From: Deltaproteobacteria bacterium
Lineage (GTDB): Bacteria > Desulfobacterota > Syntrophobacteria > Syntrophobacterales > Syntrophobacteraceae
Direction: 5' to 3'
NCBI GenBank assembly: GCA_012517315.1
Contig: JAAYVE010000024.1
Location: 1-64,000 of the forward strand
Length of the DNA stretch: 64,000 nucleotides
Made by a program: the position numbers and the translations under genes. A model generated the notes under the pieces. It saw nothing but the letters and a program-made list of their open reading frames with translations. It was not told the DNA's origin and made no database searches. This document shows positions 15,531 to 25,508 of the stretch, in pieces; position 1 is the stretch's first letter; each line of letters opens with the position of its first letter.

Positions 15531-17319
15531 TCCGCTGCCGGCAAAAGGGCGTCAGCTGCTTGTGTGCCGGGGAACCGGCTGCGAGTCTCAGAAGGCCAAT
15601 CTCATCTTCGGTGCCCTCAAGGATGAAATCTTCAAGGCCGGCCTCGCTGACGACTATAAAGTCAAATTCACAGGGTGCCATGGACTCTGCCAGATGGGAC
15701 CCACGGTGATTGTGCAACCTCCTGGGACCTTCTACTGCAATGTGGCTCCGGAGGATGTGGCCGAAATTGTAAAAGTCGACCTGGTGGAAGGGGGAAAGGT
15801 GGACCGTCTCCTTTTCATTGACCCCCAGAGCAAGGAGAGGGTGCTCACCTATCATGAAATGGCGTACTTCAATCCCCAGCGGCGGATCGTGCTCCGCAAT
15901 TGCGGCTTCATCAATCCTGAGGACATCGATGACTACATTGAAGTGGGCGGGTATGAAGGAATCCGTAGGGCTCTATCCCTGACTCCCTTGGAAGTCATCG
16001 AAGAGGTGAAGTCATCGGGGTTGAGGGGAAGGGGAGGCGGAGGGTTCCCCACAGGCACCAAGTGGGAATTCTGCAACAAGTCTCCGGGCGATCAGAAGTA
16101 CCTCATCTGCAACGCAGACGAGGGAGACCCGGGGGCCTTCATGGATCGGGCCGTGCTCGAGGGGGATCCCCACAGCGTGTTGGAGGGGATGATGATCGCG
16201 GGATACGCCATTGGTGCCACCAAGGCCTACATCTACTGCCGGGCGGAATACCCCCTTGCCCACGAACGCTCCCTCATCGCCATCGATCAGGCGACCCAGA
16301 GAGGTTATCTGGGCAAAGGCATCTTCGGGTCCGACTTCGATTTTGAAATCAAGGTGAAACTCGGTGCGGGGGCGTTCGTCTGCGGTGAGGAGACGGCCCT
16401 CATGGCCTCCATCGAGGGTAAGCGGGGCATGCCCATGCCCAGGCCTCCGTTTCCTGCGGTGAAGGGACTTTTTGGCAAGCCCACAAACATCAACAACGTG
16501 GAAACCTTTGCCAACATCCCCGTAATCCTGACCAAAGGGGGGGACTGGTTCGCCCGAGTGGGGACGGAAAAAAGCAAGGGCACTAAGGTTTTTGCACTGG
16601 CCGGCAAGATCAATTACAGCGGCCTGGTGGAGATTCCCATGGGGACTTCCCTCAGGCAAATCGTGGATGAGATCGGAGGAGGCATCCCCAACAAACGCAA
16701 GTTCAAAGCGGCCCAAACGGGAGGGCCTTCAGGAGGGTGCATCCCCGCGGAGCATTTCGACATTCCCATGGATTACGAAAACCTGACCCAGGTGGGGTCC
16801 ATCATGGGTTCCGGGGGTCTCATCGTCACTGATGAAACCACCTGCATGGTGGACATGGCCAAGTTCTTCCTCAGTTTCACACAGAAGGAATCATGCGGAA
16901 AGTGTGTCCAGTGCAGGCTGGGAACCAAGAACATGCTGGAGACGCTCACGGCCATCTCCGAGGGCAAAGCCACCATGGAGGACCTGGATCTCCTCCTGGA
17001 ACTCGCCCAGGACGTGAAAGCCGGTTCCCTTTGCGGACTGGGGCAGACAGCCCCTAACCCGGTCCTTTCCACCATCCGGTATTTCCGGGATGAATACGAG
17101 GCCCATATCCTGAGAAAGGAGTGTCCAGCCAGGGTCTGCCGCAGTCTGATCAAATTCCAGGTCAACGAGGCTGCCTGCACCATGTGCGGTTCCTGCTTCA
17201 AGGCCTGCCCGGTGGGTGCCATCACGTGGCAGAAGAAACAGCCCGCGCACATTGACAAGGAGAAATGCATTAAGTGCCGCTCCTGCATCCTGGCATGCAA
17301 ATTCCATGCGATTGATTGA
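15511..17319 (+). CDS. hndC: NuoF/HndC-type NADH- and FMN-binding subunit with extra ferredoxin domains
   Basis: 602 residues. Residues 1-100: a thioredoxin-like [2Fe-2S] domain (Cys19, Cys24, then CHGLCQMGPTV). Middle: the NuoF core with GRGGGGFPTGTKW for NADH/FMN binding and CNADEGDPGAFMDR. Then ESCGKCVQCRLGTKNM for the [4Fe-4S] N3-type cluster. The C-terminus adds two [4Fe-4S] ferredoxin motifs, CTMCGSCFKACPVG and CIKCRSCILACKFH. This fusion layout is that of HndC-type subunits in soluble NAD-linked formate dehydrogenases and hydrogenases, some of which bifurcate electrons. Its gene lies between hndA and fdhA. Confidence 0.93.
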   Translation: MHTETISPLPAKGRQLLVCRGTGCESQKANLIFGALKDEIFKAGLADDYKVKFTGCHGLCQMGPTVIVQPPGTFYCNVAPEDVAEIVKVDLVEGGKVDRLLFIDPQSKERVLTYHEMAYFNPQRRIVLRNCGFINPEDIDDYIEVGGYEGIRRALSLTPLEVIEEVKSSGLRGRGGGGFPTGTKWEFCNKSPGDQKYLICNADEGDPGAFMDRAVLEGDPHSVLEGMMIAGYAIGATKAYIYCRAEYPLAHERSLIAIDQATQRGYLGKGIFGSDFDFEIKVKLGAGAFVCGEETALMASIEGKRGMPMPRPPFPAVKGLFGKPTNINNVETFANIPVILTKGGDWFARVGTEKSKGTKVFALAGKINYSGLVEIPMGTSLRQIVDEIGGGIPNKRKFKAAQTGGPSGGCIPAEHFDIPMDYENLTQVGSIMGSGGLIVTDETTCMVDMAKFFLSFTQKESCGKCVQCRLGTKNMLETLTAISEGKATMEDLDLLLELAQDVKAGSLCGLGQTAPNPVLSTIRYFRDEYEAHILRKECPARVCRSLIKFQVNEAACTMCGSCFKACPVGAITWQKKQPAHIDKEKCIKCRSCILACKFHAID

Positions 17320-17387
17320 TTGCAGGCTGGAAAAAAACTTGGCCAACTTTTCCGGGTTTGAAACCGGCGAGAGATCAGAGAGGAAAA

Positions 17388-20108
17388 ATGGACAAGGACA
17401 TCATCACCCTGACGGTACATGGCAAGGATTTCCTGGGAAAGGTGCAGGGGAGAAAGGGTCAGACGGTGCTCGAGGTCTTGAGGGACAACCACATCCACGT
17501 TCCAACCCTTTGCTACCATCCCAAGATGCCTCCGTACGGCGGTTGCCGATTGTGCATCGTGGAGATCGAAAACATGCGCGGACTGCCTCCCAGTTGCACG
17601 ACCCCGGCGGTGGACGGCATGGTTGTGCACACCCATACGGATCGTGTTTTTCAGGTGCGCAAATCTGTCCTGGAGCTGCTCTTGGCCTACGGGGACCACA
17701 ACTGCCTCCTTTGCGAGCAAACGGGAAACTGCGAACTGCAGGACCTGGTTTACGAACACGGCATTGAAAAGATCCGTTTCAAGTCCGATTACAAGTCCAA
17801 ACCCCTGGATGATTCCAACTCCATGATCGTCCGGGACCCCAACAAGTGCGTCCTGTGTGGCCGCTGCGTGAGGGCCTGCCTGGAGGTGCAGGTGAACGGC
17901 GTCATCGATGTGGCGTTGCGGGGATCGGATTCCTGTATCTCCACATTCAACGGCATGTCCCTCAAGGATTCCAATTGCGTTTTCTGCGGAGAATGCGTGA
18001 GCGTCTGCCCCACGGGAGCCCTCACCTTTAAGCAGGCCCGCTTTAAGGGAAGACCGTGGGAGCTCAAGAAAGTGCAGACCACCTGCACTTATTGCGGTGT
18101 GGGGTGCCAAATGGAGCTCAACATCAAGGACAATGAAATCGTCAAGGTGACATCGAGCCACGAGATCCGGGGGCCCAACGTGGGGAATCTTTGCATCAAG
18201 GGGCGCTTCGGCTACGACTGGGTCAAACACCCGGACCGTCTCAAGACCCCACTCATCCGGGAGGAAGGGATCTTTCGTGAGGCTTCCTGGGAGGAGGCCC
18301 TCAGTCTCATTGCCCAGCGCTTCGAGAACATCAGGGTCAAGTCCGGCCCCGATTCCATCGCCTTTTTCACTTCCGCCCGTTGCACTAACGAAGAAAACTA
18401 CATCATGAGCAAGTTTGCCCGAGCGGTGATCGGGACCAACAACATCGATCATTGTGCCCGCCTTTGACACGCCTCCACTGTGGCCGGTCTGGCCGCAGCC
18501 TTCGGAAGCGGTGCCATGACGAACTCCATCGAGGAACTGGAAAAGGCGGACGTTATACTGGTAGCAGGATCGAACACCACCGGCATGCACCCCGTGATCG
18601 CCTCCACCATCAAACGGGCTGTCAGGAGTGGAAAAACCAAGGTCGTCGTTGTGGATCCCCGCAAAATCGAACTGGTGAATCACGCCGAACTGTGGCTCCG
18701 CCCCAAGCCAGGGACCGATGTGGCCTGGCTCAACGGCTTGATGCACGTGATCATCAATGAGGACCTCCACGCCAAGGGTTACATCGCGGAGCGAACTGAA
18801 GGCTTTGAGGATCTGAAACAAGCTGTCTCGACCTATTCGCCTGAAAGGGTGGAGGAAATCAGCGGGATACCGAAGGCGGATCTCATCGAGGCCGCCAGGT
18901 TGTATGCCAAGGCTCCCGCGGCTTCCATCATCTATGCCATGGGGATCACGCAGCACATCAACGGGACGGATGGAGTCAAAAGTGTCGCCAACCTGGCCAT
19001 GCTCTGCGGCAACGTGGGCATCGAAGGAGGCGGGGTGAACCCCCTCCGTGGACAGAACAATGTGCAGGGGGCCTGCGACATGGGAGGTCTTCCCAACGTC
19101 TTTTCTGGTTATCAGCCGGTGACCTCCAAGGAAGTACGGGAGAAGATGGGCAGGGCATGGGGTGTGGAAAGCCTCCCTGAGAAACCCGGCCTAACCATCG
19201 TCGAGATCGTGGATGGAGCGGTAAAAGGGGACATCAAGGCCATGTACATCATGGGGGAGAATCCGGTGGTGAGCGACCCGGATTCTCATCATGTGCGCAG
19301 GGGACTCAACTCCCTTGATTTTCTGGTGGTTCAGGATATTTTCCTCAACCGCACGGCCCGCTTGGCGGATGTGGTGCTGCCGGCCTGTTGCTTTGCAGAA
19401 AAGGACGGCACCTTCACCAACACGGAGCGGCGCGTCCAACTGGTGCGCAAAGCAGTAGAGCCTCCCGGGGACGCGCGTCCAGACTGGGAGATCCTCTGCG
19501 ACCTGGCTCGCCACATGGGCTATCCCATGAGCTATCCCAACGCGTCGGCCATCTTCGATGAAATTGCGTCTTTGACGCCGTCTTACGCAGGAATGGACTA
19601 CGCGCGACTTGCGGACGGCGGTCTCCAGTGGCCCTGTCCCAGCAAGGACCACCCGGGAACCAAGTATCTCCACAAGGATGGCTTTGCAAGGGGCAAGGGG
19701 CTGTTCCACGGCATCGAATGGATCTCCCCTGCCGAAGGAACCGACGAGAAGTACCCATTCCTTCTCACCACCGGACGTGTCCTTTATCAGTACCACACGG
19801 GGACCATGAGTCGCCGGTCCGTGGCACTGAATGAACGCTATCCGGAATGCCTGGTGGAGATCAATGAGGAGGATGCGGAACGGTTGGGGATCAAGAGTGG
19901 AGACAAGATACGTGTCTCGTCAAGAAGGGGTAGAATCGAGGCTACTGCCTCCGTGGGGGACTCCGTCGATCTCGGCACCATTTTCATCCCCTTTCACTTT
20001 GCCGAGGTCCCGGTGAACGAATTGACCATCGCGGCTCTCGATCCTATCGCCAAGATCCCCGAATTCAAGGTCTGCGCCGTTCGGGTTGAGATGGTTGGAG
20101 AGGAATAA
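17388..20108 (+). CDS. fdhA: selenocysteine-containing formate dehydrogenase catalytic subunit (UGA read through)
   Basis: One gene of 907 codons with an in-frame TGA at 18465-18467 (codon 360) read as selenocysteine: [15 protein letters not shown] matches the active site of Sec formate dehydrogenases (E. coli FdhF has CARV-U-HGPSVAGL). A SECIS hairpin follows. N-terminal NuoG-like part: [2Fe-2S] Cys42/53/56/70, [12 protein letters not shown] (His-ligated [4Fe-4S] type), then [11 protein letters not shown] and [11 protein letters not shown]. From about residue 228 comes the Mo/W-bisMGD domain with TCTYCGVGC for its own [4Fe-4S]. The C-terminal molybdopterin-binding part is complete ([17 protein letters not shown]). 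ATG 17388 follows GAGAGGAAAA. Reaction: reversible formate oxidation to CO2, cytoplasmic, with HndA/HndC giving NAD linkage. Confidence 0.95.
18478..18498 (+). promoter_or_regulatory. bacterial SECIS element of fdhA
   Basis: CTGTGGCC, loop GGTCT, GGCCGCAG: an 8-bp stem (one T-G wobble) whose GGTCT loop begins 18 bases after the TGA. The loop sequence and distance match the E. coli fdhF SECIS as I recall it. It should bind SelB and recruit Sec-tRNA. Confidence 0.88.
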
Positions 20109-20155: not shown

Positions 20156-20398
20156 CGTACAGGAAAGGATCAGCAGTCAGGAGGGGGTATAGAGATATCG
20201 TCAGTAATTTCCGGCTGCATTTGCCATAACTTTTTAAGAGATCCCAAGACCGGGCTGGATTCAGCTTTCTCCAATTTCTTGTAGTATGGGGTCCTCGCAA
20301 GCCTTTTTCGTCCGGGGCCTGAGATGATCGGCTCTCCTGGACGGTTGCCCGCATAGATCCGGAGCATGCTTGACGTTTGCTTGGAGAAGGGAATCAAC

Positions 20399-21547
20399 AT
20401 GCTCAAACGTCGAATCCCCCTCAATCTCAGCGACGTACAGATTCAGAAGCTCAAAGCCGTTCAGTCATCTCCCCTGGAGTCCCGCACCAGTGTTGTCCGC
20501 GCAAGGATTCTGCTGCGGTACCACGGTGGTGAGAGGGTGGGGACCATAGCGCGCCAGGAAGGAGTCAGTCGGCCGACGGTTTACCTTTGCATTCAGAAAG
20601 CCGTCGCCCTTGGGGTTGAGGGAGCGATTCGTGACCTTTCCCGCTCTGGCCGTCCTGCCAGGAACTCTCGGGAGGACCGGAGCCGGGTGAAGGAGTGGGC
20701 GGGTTCAAAGCCGCTGTCCCGTGGGGGCGATTCAGAAAAAGGGATCATGCGGGTCCTTGGACGGCGCGTCAAAACCCATGCTTCGGAAACCGGCCATCAT
20801 GCCCTGGAGCAGGTCTGCGCAAACACCTTGCGGAGGGTCCTCGGGGAATCGGCTCCCAAAAATCTCGCCAGGGAACCGAACTTCCGTGAGAAAGAGCTTG
20901 GGGAACTTCAAAGGAGCCCCATTCAGGTTCTGGCTCTTCGCAGAGGCATCCAAATCCTTTTGAACAGGGGCGAGGGGAAGGACCGGGAGCAGGCTGGATC
21001 CTTGCCCCGTCGTCATTCCAGGGGGACGGCGCAAACGCCGGGGAGCGTCATCGCCGATCTCTCCGTCCAGCCGTCGCGACACAATGCCCCTTGCCCCGTG
21101 GGCGATTTCCGACATGTGGGCACAGTCTTTCTGATGGCTGCAATCGACCTTTCAGACGGACATGTGCTCGCACGCGTAAGAGACGGAAACACCAGCGAAG
21201 ACTTTCTGGAGTTTCTCAAGGCGATCCATGAGCACTATCCCTTGAATTTCCGAATCCAACTCACACTTTCCAGGCACTCCATCCCCATCTCCCGTTACAC
21301 CATGAAATGGCTCCAGGAGCATCCTTTTCGCTTCGAATTCGTCTTCACACCTCAGAACGGAGCCTTGATCAGGGTCGTGGAAACGCTTTTCACAAGGATG
21401 ATCGGTCTCCGGTTGCGTTCCTTCCGTGCTCGCTCCACAGGGGAAATCATCCGTGGGCTTTATGAATACCTGGAAACACTCAATCTTGTCCCTGCTGTAC
21501 CGTCGACCTGGGAGCCTTGCACGGAGCATTTCCCCGGCACGACTTGA
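20399..21547 (+). pseudogene. decayed IS630-family transposase
   Basis: A continuous frame from ATG 20399, but the protein is damaged. Residues 1-100 are the IS630 helix-turn-helix region (SSPLESRTSVVRARILLRYH, GVSRPTVYLCIQKA). The middle (about residues 100-220) is unlike the family. The C-terminal half is IS630 DDE domain: VGTVFLMAAIDLSDG, FRFEFVFTPQNG, VVETLF. The second catalytic Asp is missing: LTLSRHS stands where LDNHS is usual, and NGALIRVVE replaces HGSWLNLVE. No terminal inverted repeats were identified. Its insertion separates fdhA from the NifS-SelD gene. Confidence 0.75.
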
Positions 21548-21983: not shown

Positions 21984-22481
21984 GTGTTGAACGTGAGTCG
22001 AGGGTCTGGATCATTTTCCGGCTCTCCTCCGGGGGGGCTCCGCATTGAAGGGAAATAGCGATCAAGAGTCCCTGGTCCATTTCATGAAGAGGACGTGGCC
22101 TTAATGGTTGGAGACGCGGCCTTTCAAAGAACAGGGGGTTGGATTTCCTTGGGGGGCGATGGCACCTCAAGGTGCTTCCCCTTTTCCGGGGTGGATCGCG
22201 ATCGTTATTGGCCGGCTGGGCCCCTTTACCGAAATGCATTGTTTTTCCCCACATGCAAAGGCCCCGCAGCCTGCCGTGGGACTTCCTTCCTTTGACCTTT
22301 CCACAGGGGGGCTTCGCCTGGAGCCCGTTACACTTACTTGCCGCCTGCTGGCATGCGGTACGGGCTCGGAGTCTCTCCCTCGCATCCTTTGAGAGTCGAG
22401 CAAAAATCCTCCTTTCTACTTGCCCAACTTGAGGGAACGAGCTAAAAAACGCGGGTTGAGCAGCTTCAGAGGAGACCCACC
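21984..22481. other. intergenic region before the NifS-SelD gene
   Basis: About 500 GC-rich bases with no supported gene, tRNA or known riboswitch. I looked for tRNA-Sec (selC) here and did not see it. Confidence 0.4.
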
Positions 22482-24686
22482 ATGCAACCCGTGTACCTGG
22501 ATTATAACGCCACGACACCTATCGACCCCCGGGTGGCAGAGGCGATGCTGCCTTTTGTCCATGAGCACTTCGGTAATCCATCCAGCAGCCACCCTTTTGG
22601 GATAACCGCCAAGCAGGCCGTGGAGAGGGCCCGCCGGCAAGTAGCGCAGATGCTCCGTTGCGGCGCCGACGAGGTCATATTCACCAGCGGCGGAACCGAA
22701 TCAAACAATTACGCGGTGAAAGGGGTCGCGTTCGCTCATGGAAAAAGAGGCAATCACATCATCACGTCATCGATAGAACATCCTGCCATCGTGGAGGTAT
22801 GCCGTCACCTCGAGAGGAAAGGTTTCCGGGTTACTTTCCTGCCTGTGGACGCCCATGGACTCGTCAGTCCCGAAGAGGTGGAAAGGGCGATCAATCCCGG
22901 GACGATCCTCATCACCGTCATGCACGCCAACAATGAAGTGGGAACCGTCCAGCCCATCAAGGCAATCGCCGAGGTGGCGCACCGGCACGGAATCCTTTTC
23001 CACACGGATGCCGCACAGTCGGTGGGAAAGATCCCTGTCCACGTGGACGACCTGGGAGTCGACCTGCTCACCATCGCGGGTCACAAACTTTATGCTCCCA
23101 AAGGTGTGGGAGTCCTTTATGTCCGTTCCGGTGTGGAATTGGAAAAGCTCATTCACGGAGCGGATCATGAGAGGAACTGGCGGGCAGGCACCGAAAACGT
23201 CATCGAGATCGTGGGGCTGGGCGAGGCCTGTGCAATGGTTCATGAGAACCTCCCCGCCTATCACGCTCACCTGAAGGAGATGCGGGACCGACTTGAGGCC
23301 GCGCTCAGGGAAAGATTCCCCCATGTCCGATTCAACGGCCATCCGGAAAGGAGATTGCCCAACACTTGCAGTGTCGGCTTCAGGGGGCTCGAGGCCAACA
23401 CGATCCTCTCGGAACTCTCCGATGTGGCAGCTTCCGCCGGTGCAGCCTGTCACAGCGACCGCGTGGATGTTTCGGCGGTGCTCACTGCAATGGGGGTCCC
23501 CATGGAATACGCCATGGGCACGATCCGTTTTTCAACGGGACGCTTCACTTCGGCGGCGGAAATCGATCGAGCGGTGAAACGGATCACAGAGGTAGTGGAG
23601 AGACTCCAACCCAGAGAAGCGATGGTCCCCGTCATTTCCGAAAGAGAGCCAATCCGTCTTACCCAGTACACCCACGGCCTGGGGTGTGCGTGCAAGCTTC
23701 GCCCTCAACTCTTGGAAGAAGTCCTCAGGAGGGTTCCTCCTCCAGCGGATCCGGACGTGCTGGTGGGAGTGGACACCTCTGACGACGCAGCCGTCTACCG
23801 CATCGATCACTCTACCGCCATTGTCCAGACGGTCGATTTCTTCACCCCCGTTGTGGACAATCCTTTCCAGTTCGGAGTGGTCGCCGCCGTGAACTCTCTG
23901 AGTGACATCTACGCCATGGGTGCAAAGCCCCTGTTCGCCCTCAGCATCGTCGGTTTTCCCAGCAACAGACTGCCCATGTGGGTGCTGGAGGAAATCCTGA
24001 AGGGTGCCCAAAGCGTTGCCGCCGATGCGGGGATTTCCGTCATTGGCGGTCACACGGTGGATGATACGGAGCCCAAGTTCGGACTGGCGGTGACGGGAAC
24101 CGTCCATCCCGGAAGAATTCTCAAAAATGTGGGAGCGCGACCAGGCGACGCCCTTGTTCTTACCAAGCCCATCGGGACCGGCATTCTCTCCACGGCACTG
24201 AAACAGGGAATGCTCGATGAATCCGGCTCTGAGGCTCTCTTCCGGGTGATGGCCACTCTAAACAAAGGAGCGGCCGAGGTGATGGAATCATTTGAAGTCC
24301 ATGCATGCACGGATGTGACCGGGTTCGGTCTCTTGGGCCATCTCCTGGAAATGATGAAGGGATCCGGTGTTTCGGGCCAGGTTCGCGCTTCCGCGGTTCC
24401 GCTTCTTCCCGGCGTCTTGGACTTGGCCACTGGAGGGGTCATCCCCGGGGGGACTCAGAACAATCATGATTACACGGCGCCTTACGTGGCGTACGAAGAG
24501 AAGATTTCGGCCGTGCAGCGGCTGTTCCTCAACGATGCCCAGACCTCCGGAGGACTCCTCGTATCGTTGGAGGAAGAAAAGGCGGACGTGTTCCTCAAGG
24601 CTCTGGAGGCGAAAGGGGTGGCATCCGCCTCGAAAATCGGCGTCGTGATTCCGGAGGGAAGTCACAAGATAGAGGTTCGAGAATAG
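22482..24686 (+). CDS. selD: cysteine desulfurase (NifS-like) fused to selenide water dikinase (SelD)
   Basis: 734 residues, two enzymes in one chain. Residues 1 to about 385 are a class V aminotransferase: VYLDYNATTPIDPRV, TSGGTESNNYAVKG, HTDAAQSVGKI, the PLP Lys in AGHKLYAPKGVGVLY, and SAGAACHSD with the catalytic Cys. From about residue 390 comes SelD: RLTQYTHGLGCACKL, with Cys where many SelD have Sec or Cys, DDAAVYRID for metal binding, GGHTVDDTEPKFGL, and CTDVTGFGLLGH. The NifS part would release selenium from selenocysteine (or sulfur from Cys) and hand it to SelD, which makes selenophosphate from selenide and ATP. ATG follows AGAGGAGACC. Close to the Sec-dependent fdhA, which needs the product. 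Confidence 0.95.
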   Translation: MQPVYLDYNATTPIDPRVAEAMLPFVHEHFGNPSSSHPFGITAKQAVERARRQVAQMLRCGADEVIFTSGGTESNNYAVKGVAFAHGKRGNHIITSSIEHPAIVEVCRHLERKGFRVTFLPVDAHGLVSPEEVERAINPGTILITVMHANNEVGTVQPIKAIAEVAHRHGILFHTDAAQSVGKIPVHVDDLGVDLLTIAGHKLYAPKGVGVLYVRSGVELEKLIHGADHERNWRAGTENVIEIVGLGEACAMVHENLPAYHAHLKEMRDRLEAALRERFPHVRFNGHPERRLPNTCSVGFRGLEANTILSELSDVAASAGAACHSDRVDVSAVLTAMGVPMEYAMGTIRFSTGRFTSAAEIDRAVKRITEVVERLQPREAMVPVISEREPIRLTQYTHGLGCACKLRPQLLEEVLRRVPPPADPDVLVGVDTSDDAAVYRIDHSTAIVQTVDFFTPVVDNPFQFGVVAAVNSLSDIYAMGAKPLFALSIVGFPSNRLPMWVLEEILKGAQSVAADAGISVIGGHTVDDTEPKFGLAVTGTVHPGRILKNVGARPGDALVLTKPIGTGILSTALKQGMLDESGSEALFRVMATLNKGAAEVMESFEVHACTDVTGFGLLGHLLEMMKGSGVSGQVRASAVPLLPGVLDLATGGVIPGGTQNNHDYTAPYVAYEEKISAVQRLFLNDAQTSGGLLVSLEEEKADVFLKALEAKGVASASKIGVVIPEGSHKIEVRE

Positions 24687-24848
24687 AAAAGGGATGAATC
24701 CGCCGCTGCCCCTTGATATTCTTATTTTTTGTCTGAGGAGGAGAAAGATTCCCATTGATTTACATGAAAGCTTGCGAGGGCGAAGCCGGTTTAACCTGAG
24801 TCGCTTGTGGCGTTTGAATTTCCAGTTGAAAGTTGAAGGATGACAGTG

Positions 24849-25508
24849 ATGGTTGCGATTGTTGTGGACGGAAAAACGATTGAAGCGGAGGAGGGGGCGA
24901 ACCTCCTGCAGGTGTGCCTGGAAAACGGGATCTATATTCCCAACCTTTGTTTTCTCAAAGAGATGGAGCATCCCACCGGGTCGTGCAGGATGTGCCTTGT
25001 GGAAATCGATGGGGAGGACAAGCCGGTCACTTCCTGCATGAGAAGAGTTCAGGATGGCATGGTGGTTCGGACGGACACGGAGCAGGTGAGACACCTTCAG
25101 CGCATCGATTTTCAGTTGCTCATGTCCGCCCACCACATGGACTGCAAGAACTGCCTGTCCAATAAGCACTGTGAACTGAAGAAGATCGCGAAGCATCTGG
25201 GTGTCCGCCTCAAGGCGACGAAATTCGAGGAACTGGGACGGGACCTTGCAGTTCTGAAGCATCCTCTCTTTGATCTTCTCCCGGCCCGCTGTATTCTTTG
25301 CAGGAAATGCCTCTTCATCTGTCAGCAGGCCAACGGTGAGCCTCTGCTGCGGTTGGTGCGGAAGGGGTACGAGAGCGTTATTGAGGCAGCCTGCGAGGGA
25401 CAGGACCCCGAGGAATTGCCCTGCAAGTTCTGTATGGCATGCGTCAAGGGTTGCCCGGTGAGTGCCATCGTGCCTTATTCCACTTACGAACTGGAAAAAA
25501 GCGCCTGA
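24849..25508 (+). CDS. NuoG-like iron-sulfur electron-transfer protein
   Basis: 219 residues with the same cluster order as the N-terminus of FdhA but no catalytic domain. A [2Fe-2S] domain (LCFLKEMEHPTGSCRMC with a fourth Cys in TSCMRR), then HHMDCKNCLSNKHCELKK (His/Cys [4Fe-4S]), then CILCRKCLFIC and CKFCMACVKGCPVSAI. ATG 24849 is eight bases after GAAGGA; ATG 24840 is too close to it. Such proteins join flavin subunits to hydrogenases or formate dehydrogenases; here the partner could be HndA/HndC or a complex elsewhere. It is unlikely to be a fragment, since start and stop are clean. Confidence 0.8.
   Translation: MVAIVVDGKTIEAEEGANLLQVCLENGIYIPNLCFLKEMEHPTGSCRMCLVEIDGEDKPVTSCMRRVQDGMVVRTDTEQVRHLQRIDFQLLMSAHHMDCKNCLSNKHCELKKIAKHLGVRLKATKFEELGRDLAVLKHPLFDLLPARCILCRKCLFICQQANGEPLLRLVRKGYESVIEAACEGQDPEELPCKFCMACVKGCPVSAIVPYSTYELEKSA

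Follow-up and report, generated by a model that had tools for sequence, protein, structure and literature searches.

A widespread fusion of a NifS-like lyase with the selenophosphate synthetase SelD, encoded in a Syntrophobacteraceae genome that also carries a selenocysteine-type SelD

Results

A single open reading frame joins a NifS-like lyase to SelD

The window analyzed here is a stretch of 64,000 nucleotides of DNA from a Deltaproteobacteria bacterium of the family Syntrophobacteraceae (assembly GCA_012517315.1, contig JAAYVE010000024.1). On its forward strand, positions 22482-24686 comprise 734 codons with no internal stop, a single open reading frame (ORF) in the six-frame list. The original prediction described this gene as a fusion of a NifS-like cysteine desulfurase with SelD that keeps the active-site motifs of both halves. 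Domain searches found both domains complete in the one ORF, with Aminotran_5 on residues 4-363 (E 1e-81) and AIRS/AIRS_C on residues 434-732, and the motifs were present in each half. The features of the gene are listed below, PLP denoting pyridoxal phosphate, SCLY selenocysteine lyase, and pLDDT the predicted local distance difference test score.

22482..24686, + strand: lyase/desulfurase-SelD fusion gene, 734 amino acids (open frame, profile matches)
22468..22474, + strand: Shine-Dalgarno-like AGAGGAG, 7 nt 5' of the start codon (read from the sequence)
22482..23609, + strand: NifS-like PLP lyase half, residues 1-376 (Aminotran_5; NifS/IscS models below cut-off; best PDB matches cysteine desulfurases)
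22782..22784, + strand: Pro101, at the position of human SCLY Asp146, a selenium-specificity residue (placed via the EHx motif; 81/81; reference residue as given in PMC3266270)
23076..23078, + strand: Ala199, at the position of human SCLY Val256 (placed via the GHK motif; invariant in 53 rows)
23085..23087, + strand: Lys202, PLP lysine (81/81)
23448..23453, + strand: Cys323, predicted to accept the chalcogen, and His324, at the position of human SCLY His389 (81/81 each; loop pLDDT <50)
23610..23654, + strand: linker, residues 377-391 (15 residues), variable in sequence (alignment)
23655..24683, + strand: SelD half, residues 392-734 (TIGR00476 above cut-off)
23685..23693, + strand: Cys402-Ala-Cys404, SelD catalytic loop, with Cys402 at the selenocysteine (Sec) position of the family's free-standing SelDs (alignments)

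The C-terminal half exceeded the cut-offs of two SelD models (TIGR00476, 393.7 bits versus 125; NF002098, 399.4 versus 299). The lyase half scored below every equivalog cut-off, with NifS as top model (TIGR03402, 486 bits against 530.75), and IscS (420.9/643.2), DndA (406.1/480), and SclA (119.9/525) also falling short. It has the features of the group I cysteine desulfurase/selenocysteine lyase superfamily, namely an aminotransferase V fold, a PLP lysine, and a cysteine loop predicted to be mobile. The motifs comprise Lys202 and Cys323 in the lyase half, and Cys402-x-Cys404-Lys405 with aspartates D434, D435, D452, D475, and D611 in the SelD half. We take Cys402, Lys405, D435, D452, D475, and D611 to be the counterparts of Cys/Sec17, Lys20, and the metal-binding aspartates of Escherichia coli SelD, the numbering and roles of the latter being in part our assumption.

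An AlphaFold2 model built from 53 aligned fusions had a mean pLDDT of 89.4 and a predicted TM score of 0.72. Exactly two segments of at least three residues fell below a pLDDT of 50, residues 321-328 (the Cys323 loop) and 400-404 (the Cys402 loop). No solved structure of both halves was seen among the 50 PDB matches listed of 1918 by Foldseek or the 60 of 138 by sequence, since the listed Foldseek matches span 375-403 columns, the length of one half, and the sequence matches cover one half each. A promoter scan at the fusion found nothing.

Relatives were sought in one scan of GTDB species genomes, which returned at least 570, and the best 80 were retained. All 80 retained loci are fused, which is a minimum number and not a rate because retaining the best matches favors full-length fusions. 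In the alignment of these 80 with the window fusion, 81 of 81 proteins keep Lys202, Cys323, His324, Cys402, Lys405, and all five aspartates, and 80 keep Cys404. Neither the window nor any of the 80 relatives has a stop or frameshift at the junction (about position 23630). Linker sequence is variable, and linker length mostly differs by a few residues; from position 350 to Cys402, three sequences exceed the most frequent length by approximately 20-60 residues. The window protein and that of a locus in the same genus (L080) are 76% identical without gaps, and their genes differ at 115, 86, and 398 first, second, and third codon positions, hence mostly at the third. Nonsynonymous (dN) and synonymous (dS) divergence between the two, estimated by the NG86 method, was 0.113 and 2.35 for the lyase half and 0.168 and 1.64 for the SelD half; dN/dS is well below 1 with dS saturated, and both halves are under purifying selection. 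We regard the fusion as confirmed to be genuine, far beyond chance.

The fusion occurs in about 12 phyla

Fusions of this kind were said to have been noted in a few related anaerobes, a range that proved too narrow: the survey of genomes suggested along with the prediction yielded at least 80 further full-length, in-frame fusions from about 12 phyla, mostly in Bacteroidota metagenome-assembled genomes (MAGs). Bacteroidota account for 58 of the best 80 loci, Planctomycetota for three, and Zixi-, Latesci-, Krumholzi-, Cloacimon-, Eisenii-, and Chloroflexota for two each; Thermodesulfobacteriota, Calditrichota, Acidobacteriota, and Thorarchaeota are represented once. One 'Deltaproteobacteria' record among the best 80 is filed under Myxococcota by its NCBI name, yet belongs to the genus of the window; the records G412 and G446 have identical positions. 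One relative in the scan is labeled Syntrophobacteraceae. Nearly all fusion records are labeled as MAGs, Maribellus luteus (L078) being one that is not, and isolated odd carriers such as Thorarchaeota may therefore be binning errors.

Closer to the window, the fusion is rare. A scan of its own phylum covered 395 genomes with two candidates scored per genome, and among the matches listed a full-length fusion was found in two. Within the window's family, three of 26 genomes have it. A match in G057 that runs past the lyase was considered as a broken fusion and rejected, there being no SelD at that place.

Many fusion genomes encode a second, selenocysteine-type SelD

The genome containing the window belongs to a selenocysteine-decoding host, as it has selA, tRNA-Sec, a gene for a Sec-containing formate dehydrogenase (FdhA) with a selenocysteine insertion sequence (SECIS), and two SelDs above cut-off. 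One of the latter is the fusion; the other is free-standing on contig 42 and contains one in-frame UGA.

L002 1387-2475, contig 42, - strand: free-standing SelD of the Sec type, catalytic position encoded by UGA, directly 3' of yedF (SelD profile, translation)

In translation, the motif AAGUAAK of this protein aligns with GLGCACK of the fusion, such that U occupies the Cys402 position. The fusion is therefore not the sole selenophosphate source of its genome. No SECIS was found after the UGA of the Sec-type selD: its fold was no better than those of shuffled sequences, Rfam gave no SECIS match, and a guessed DNA pattern for SECIS had no match. The Sec reading thus depends on where the UGA lies, a position common to 38 SelDs. 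These come from a set of free SelDs drawn from the surveyed fusion genomes and the window's family, excluding the duplicates L204 and L205 and the N-terminally cut L170. With a readable N-terminus, 38 of 40 are Sec-type, all with U at the Cys402 position, and two are Cys-type.

The survey comprised 51 fusion genomes, namely the window's own (G000) and 50 drawn from the 80 loci; the latter include every one of the 22 non-Bacteroidota and 28 of the 58 Bacteroidota, giving 23 non-Bacteroidota in total. These genomes are related, so that co-occurrence tests overstate their independence. A Sec-type second SelD was found in 16 of the 51, all 16 among the 23 non-Bacteroidota and none among the 28 Bacteroidota; 14 are complete with one UGA, one is in two pieces, and one is a partial gene at a contig end below cut-off. 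A second SelD lacking a UGA occurs in two Bacteroidota fusion genomes. The other 33 genomes of the survey have the fusion as the only SelD found, with no second above cut-off and no Sec-type piece. In a Krumholzibacteriota MAG (G413, contig 25, 219031-226863), the fusion and a UGA-type SelD lie only about 6 kb apart. In the window's family, SelD was above cut-off in 24 of 26 genomes, all 24 having a UGA-type. Two or three UGA-type SelDs occur in 10 of those 24 (G276, G255, G447, G448, G450, and G454-G458, the second of G255 being in pieces).

In the window's genome, the gene directly preceding the Sec-type selD encodes YedF (TIGR03527, 203 bits versus 110). YedF was above cut-off in seven of the 51 genomes, six of the 16 with a Sec-type SelD and one of the 35 without. 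With a looser line of E<1e-26, which was set after inspecting the list, these counts became nine of 16 versus one of 35 (Fisher 3e-5, among related genomes), and within non-Bacteroidota nine of 16 versus one of seven (p 0.09). In three more of the 16 (G397, G404, and G409), the Sec-type selD is preceded, at a distance of up to about 200 nt, by a weak TusA-like match. The UGA of the TusA-like genes beside Sec-type selD was considered as a selenocysteine codon and rejected, as it is their stop codon. YedF does not mark the Sec type alone, because in G433 a free Cys-type SelD is closely preceded by a partial YedF match.

Potential uses of selenophosphate differ between carriers. selA was above cut-off in 19 of 51 fusion genomes, 17 of the 23 non-Bacteroidota and two of the 28 Bacteroidota, and MnmH in 27, comprising 27 of the 28 Bacteroidota (the 28th has it in pieces) and none of the 23 others. 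In 16 of the 80 loci, all from Bacteroidota, an MnmH-type gene, of a cluster identified as MnmH on three members, lies on the same strand within 200 nt upstream of the fusion or overlaps it by 16 nt. One of these carriers is the cultured Maribellus luteus XSD2 (L078), with MnmH 10 nt upstream and no second SelD above cut-off. With MnmH in Bacteroidota and mostly selA elsewhere, the fusion is not tied to a single use of selenophosphate.

The lyase half resembles selenocysteine lyases at its cysteine loop

Overall, the lyase half is nearest to IscS, NFS1, and NifS structures by both sequence and Foldseek matches to the PDB. Residues 253-380 match best human and rat selenocysteine lyase (E 1e-20 and 2e-19), the next match being at 2e-17. 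Asp146, Val256, and His389 of human SCLY have been tested as candidates for selenium specificity, and Asp146 was reported to be decisive (Collins et al., PMC3266270). The fusion has Pro101, Ala199, and His324 at these positions, and the canonical NifS of the same genome has Pro, Ser, and Thr. Only His324 agrees with SCLY, and a strict selenocysteine lyase is not supported by the three marker residues. By these comparisons, the lyase half is a NifS relative of an unusual kind, with a loop like that of selenium lyases but without the known specificity residue.

Two further NifS-like enzymes are encoded in the genome. The separate NifS is above its cut-off (637 bits) and presumably serves Fe-S work, which would leave the fused lyase free for another task. 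The third NifS-like enzyme (L177, contig 24) is an EF2568-family PLP enzyme above cut-off that adjoins fdhD (TIGR00129, 182 bits versus 140.9). Free-standing enzymes similar to the lyase half and sharing its Cys-His motif occur across the phylum. A comparison there of this free-lyase subfamily with SelD had no power to show a link, because SelD is above cut-off in 177 of 198 genomes and the scores of the listed lyases grade without a gap.

The two halves appear to have different histories

In a tree of 52 of the 81 fused SelD halves with 38 free SelDs, the fused halves separate from the free ones with two label changes, nearly as one group. The SelD half of the window has that of L080 as its nearest partner; the next grouping, with lineages of other phyla, is less well supported. 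It groups away from the family's Sec-type SelDs, and horizontal gain of the fusion beside an older Sec-type gene fits this placement. The lyase halves (21 fused and 14 free rows) are intermixed with free lyases, and a single fusion clade was rejected (p 1.6e-17). Lyase halves would thus have been acquired, lost, or exchanged repeatedly, and a single origin is not supported although the SelD halves nearly form one group. A constraint grouping seven fusions together was not rejected (p 0.089). Three free lyases (L007-L009) nest with the window lyase half (support 99/95), which raised the possibility of fission of the fusion in relatives, but no SelD remnant was found behind them. Relatives may have lost the SelD half, or fusions may have formed repeatedly.

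Neighboring genes

The genes flanking the fusion include the following.

17316..20108, + strand: Sec-containing formate dehydrogenase alpha subunit (fdhA), 2.4 kb upstream (UGA 18465-18467; SECIS 18462-18520)
24840..25508, + strand: HoxU/NuoG-like 2Fe-2S protein, 153 nt downstream of the fusion (profile matches; same place in L080, 82% identity)

The fdhA UGA lies within a SECIS_3 match (44 bits, E 4e-9) that is below the Rfam gathering score of 63. A Sec-dependent fdhA had been pointed out 2.4 kb from the fusion; the gene and the distance stood, and a functional link is not supported, as the proximity is not conserved in the genus. An operon with fdhA was rejected because no fdh match was found in the 5.2 kb upstream of the fusion in L080, and a transposase-like ORF (20366-21547, weak HTH_29 and DDE_3 matches) separates the fdh operon from the fusion. 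We take this ORF to be a likely IS630-like transposase. Among the 80 loci, nuoF- and fdhA-N-like matches occur in L047 only, approximately 5 kb upstream. Downstream of the 2Fe-2S gene are what we take to be chemoreceptor-like and hydrolase-like genes, and the downstream genes are kept in L080. In 12 of the 80 loci (L040, L045, L048, L053, L054, L058, L060, L061, L063, L070, L071, and L089), the fusion has a nearby short-chain dehydrogenase/reductase (SDR) family oxidoreductase, of a cluster with one member identified; this is possibly no more than a shared neighborhood.

Discussion

We consider it probable that the fusion is a bifunctional selenium-activating enzyme, in which the lyase half would hand selenium to the SelD half, supplementing the Sec-type SelD. 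The substrate of the N-terminal PLP half would be L-selenocysteine, probably along with L-cysteine, and cleavage would leave a selenosulfide on Cys323. The mobile Cys323 loop would then deliver selenium to Cys402, itself on a mobile loop, and the SelD half would form selenophosphate using ATP. In the window's genome, the fusion would supplement the free Sec-type SelD in feeding the selenocysteine pathway (selA, tRNA-Sec, Sec-FdhA), and in Bacteroidota the same enzyme would feed selenouridine synthesis by MnmH. This reading is supported by the catalytic residues kept in 81 of 81 fusions, by the purifying selection on both halves, by the selenium-specific partners MnmH and selA, and by the 33 surveyed genomes with no other SelD found.

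Direct hand-over of selenium is compatible with the predicted model, and by analogy the fusion may be a permanent form of a lyase-SelD complex. NifS-like enzymes carry selenium as a sulfoselenide on their loop cysteine (PMC3266270), and those of E. coli are reported to support selenophosphate synthesis from selenocysteine (PMC7595633). The Trypanosoma brucei SCLY is described as binding SelD with its PLP site covered (PMC7595633). The C17S variant of E. coli SelD is inactive on selenide, and selenocysteine with a NifS homolog partly restores activity; Collins et al. proposed that the lyase cysteine could bypass that of SelD (PMC3266270). Under a strict bypass, Cys402 could be lost without cost, but 81 of 81 fusions keep it; conservation therefore favors a relay from Cys323 to Cys402 (or the use of free selenide) over bypass.

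Several points weigh against this interpretation. The decisive Asp146 of SCLY is Pro101 in all 81 fusions, as in the NifS of the same genome, although the position is non-discriminating here because that canonical enzyme also has Pro. A review describes specific selenocysteine lyases as mainly animal (PMC9312934). Cys-His motif enzymes occur in three of six sampled genomes without SelD above cut-off (G064, which is 99% complete, G163, and G148), so that a general desulfurase function is conceivable for the lyase half, and the Cys-His loop is weakened as a marker of selenium use; this sampling translated 19 enzymes, with L218 and L224, whose frames were unusable, left out of the count and the misplaced stretch L226 not used. 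In five of the 23 non-Bacteroidota (G398, G399, G407, G410, and G414), neither selA nor MnmH was found above cut-off or in large pieces, leaving no visible use for selenophosphate. Finally, a SelD using free selenide also fits the invariance of Cys402, and the tether may do no more than increase the local concentration.

We weighed several alternatives. A general cysteine desulfurase tethered to SelD, working mainly in sulfur mobilization with the fusion a minor convenience, is in our estimate unlikely. The overall similarity to IscS, NFS1, and NifS structures argues for it, as do the Pro101 shared with the genome's own NifS and the related Cys-His enzymes in genomes without SelD; however, the best PDB matches of residues 253-380 are the human and rat selenocysteine lyases, His324 and Ala199 differ from the canonical NifS Thr and Ser, and the fusion is mostly confined to genomes with MnmH or selA. 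We give little credence to a bootstrap role, whereby the Cys-type fusion supplies the first selenophosphate for translating the Sec-type SelD after selenium starvation. The two types do occur together in 16 of 51 fusion genomes, but 21 of the 24 SelD-bearing genomes of the family have no non-UGA SelD above cut-off, and since most thus have solely a UGA-type SelD, such a copy is not required. Hardly credible is an annotation or assembly artefact, or a SelD translated separately from an internal start. An ATG does stand at 23622 in the linker after a weak AGAGAAG, but a linker Met is found in just 26 of 81 proteins, at no fixed place, and 80 in-frame fused relatives come from other assemblies; retention favors long matches, but so many such joins are no artefact.

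A division of labor may exist between the two SelDs, and we hold this tentatively, as somewhat less likely than its negation. The free Sec-type SelD, together with YedF/TusA-like carriers, would take inorganic selenide, and the Cys-type fusion would take selenium derived from selenocysteine; its SelD loop would need no selenocysteine because selenium arrives on Cys323. Consistent with this are U at the Cys402 position in 38 of 38 readable Sec-type SelDs versus Cys in 81 of 81 fusions, the more frequent YedF with Sec-type SelD, at cut-off and at the looser post hoc line alike, and the yedF directly 5' of the Sec-type selD in the window's genome. A precedent is Photobacterium profundum, with Sec-SelD beside selAB and Cys-SelD beside ybbB (PMC1273633). 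However, the YedF difference is weak within non-Bacteroidota and the genomes are non-independent, and the partial YedF match of G433 precedes a free Cys-type SelD. The free Cys-type SelD of E. coli works without a fused lyase, which also counts against the proposal, as does the Sec-containing fusion reported in Geobacter FRC-32. We find it doubtful that the following all hold jointly: a relay without free selenium that explains the Cys loop, two parallel routes (organic, fused, and Cys; inorganic, YedF, and Sec), and passage of the fused route between phyla to feed either selenouridine or selenocysteine.

The fusion type is already known, and its spread goes far beyond the reported cases. Zhang 2008 (PMC2398784) reports a NifS-SelD fusion only in Geobacter FRC-32, with the motif CxxU, and none in ocean metagenomes; Mariotti 2015 (PMC4561486) describes two bacterial and two protist cases. 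Like the protein of Geobacter sp. FRC-32, also an anaerobic deltaproteobacterium (PMC2398784, PMC4561486), the window fusion has a NifS-like N-terminus and a SelD C-terminus on one chain, but it has C-A-C-K in place of CxxU, and all 81 aligned fusions have Cys; Sec at this place is not a defining trait of such fusions. The NifS-SPS genes of Acanthamoeba and Naegleria likewise combine the two parts, in eukaryotic hosts and as likened by description only, and are said to derive from a bacterial fusion via horizontal transfer (Mariotti 2015, PMC4561486). NADH dehydrogenase-like-SelD fusions also place an N-terminal partner on a Cys-type SelD, but the partner is an Ndh-type FAD protein and the motif CxxC (Zhang 2008, PMC2398784; Mariotti 2015, PMC4561486); the window fusion has no such domain. 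Mammalian SCLY (3gzc, 3a9x) shares the fold and the His after the catalytic Cys (human loop ASxGAACHSD), and differs by Pro for Asp146, Ala for Val256, and the fused SelD. In Enterococcus, the PLP lyase EF2568/SclA is paired with selD as neighboring genes (Haft and Self 2008, PMC2276186), but the fusion scores 119.9 against the SclA cut-off of 525 and lies outside that branch. Cysteine desulfurase-like genes have also been reported near orphan selD in several phyla (Peng 2016). P. profundum, reported at the time as the sole prokaryotic genome with two selDs, similarly has a Sec-type and a Cys-type SelD (Romero 2005, PMC1273633); there the text that places the Cys-type beside ybbB mentions no fusion. 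At least two selDs have been reported in 51 Asgard archaea. Open-access full text, subscription papers being outside this scope, yielded neither a biochemical study of a NifS-SelD fusion nor a survey of its co-occurrence with Sec-type SelD; the wide distribution and that pairing are new in the sense of not being found described there.

A long-standing question is whether cells ever contain free selenide or instead pass it from the lyase to SelD. The fusion would be a covalent version of the lyase-SelD complex, making the hand-over question testable on one polypeptide. Genomes with both a Sec-type and a fused Cys-type SelD offer a natural experiment on why SelD uses selenocysteine at all. If the relay is true, such delivery would account for the lack of selenocysteine in the fusion SelD loops (0 of 81) despite its presence in the free SelD of the same cell, as in the genome of the window.

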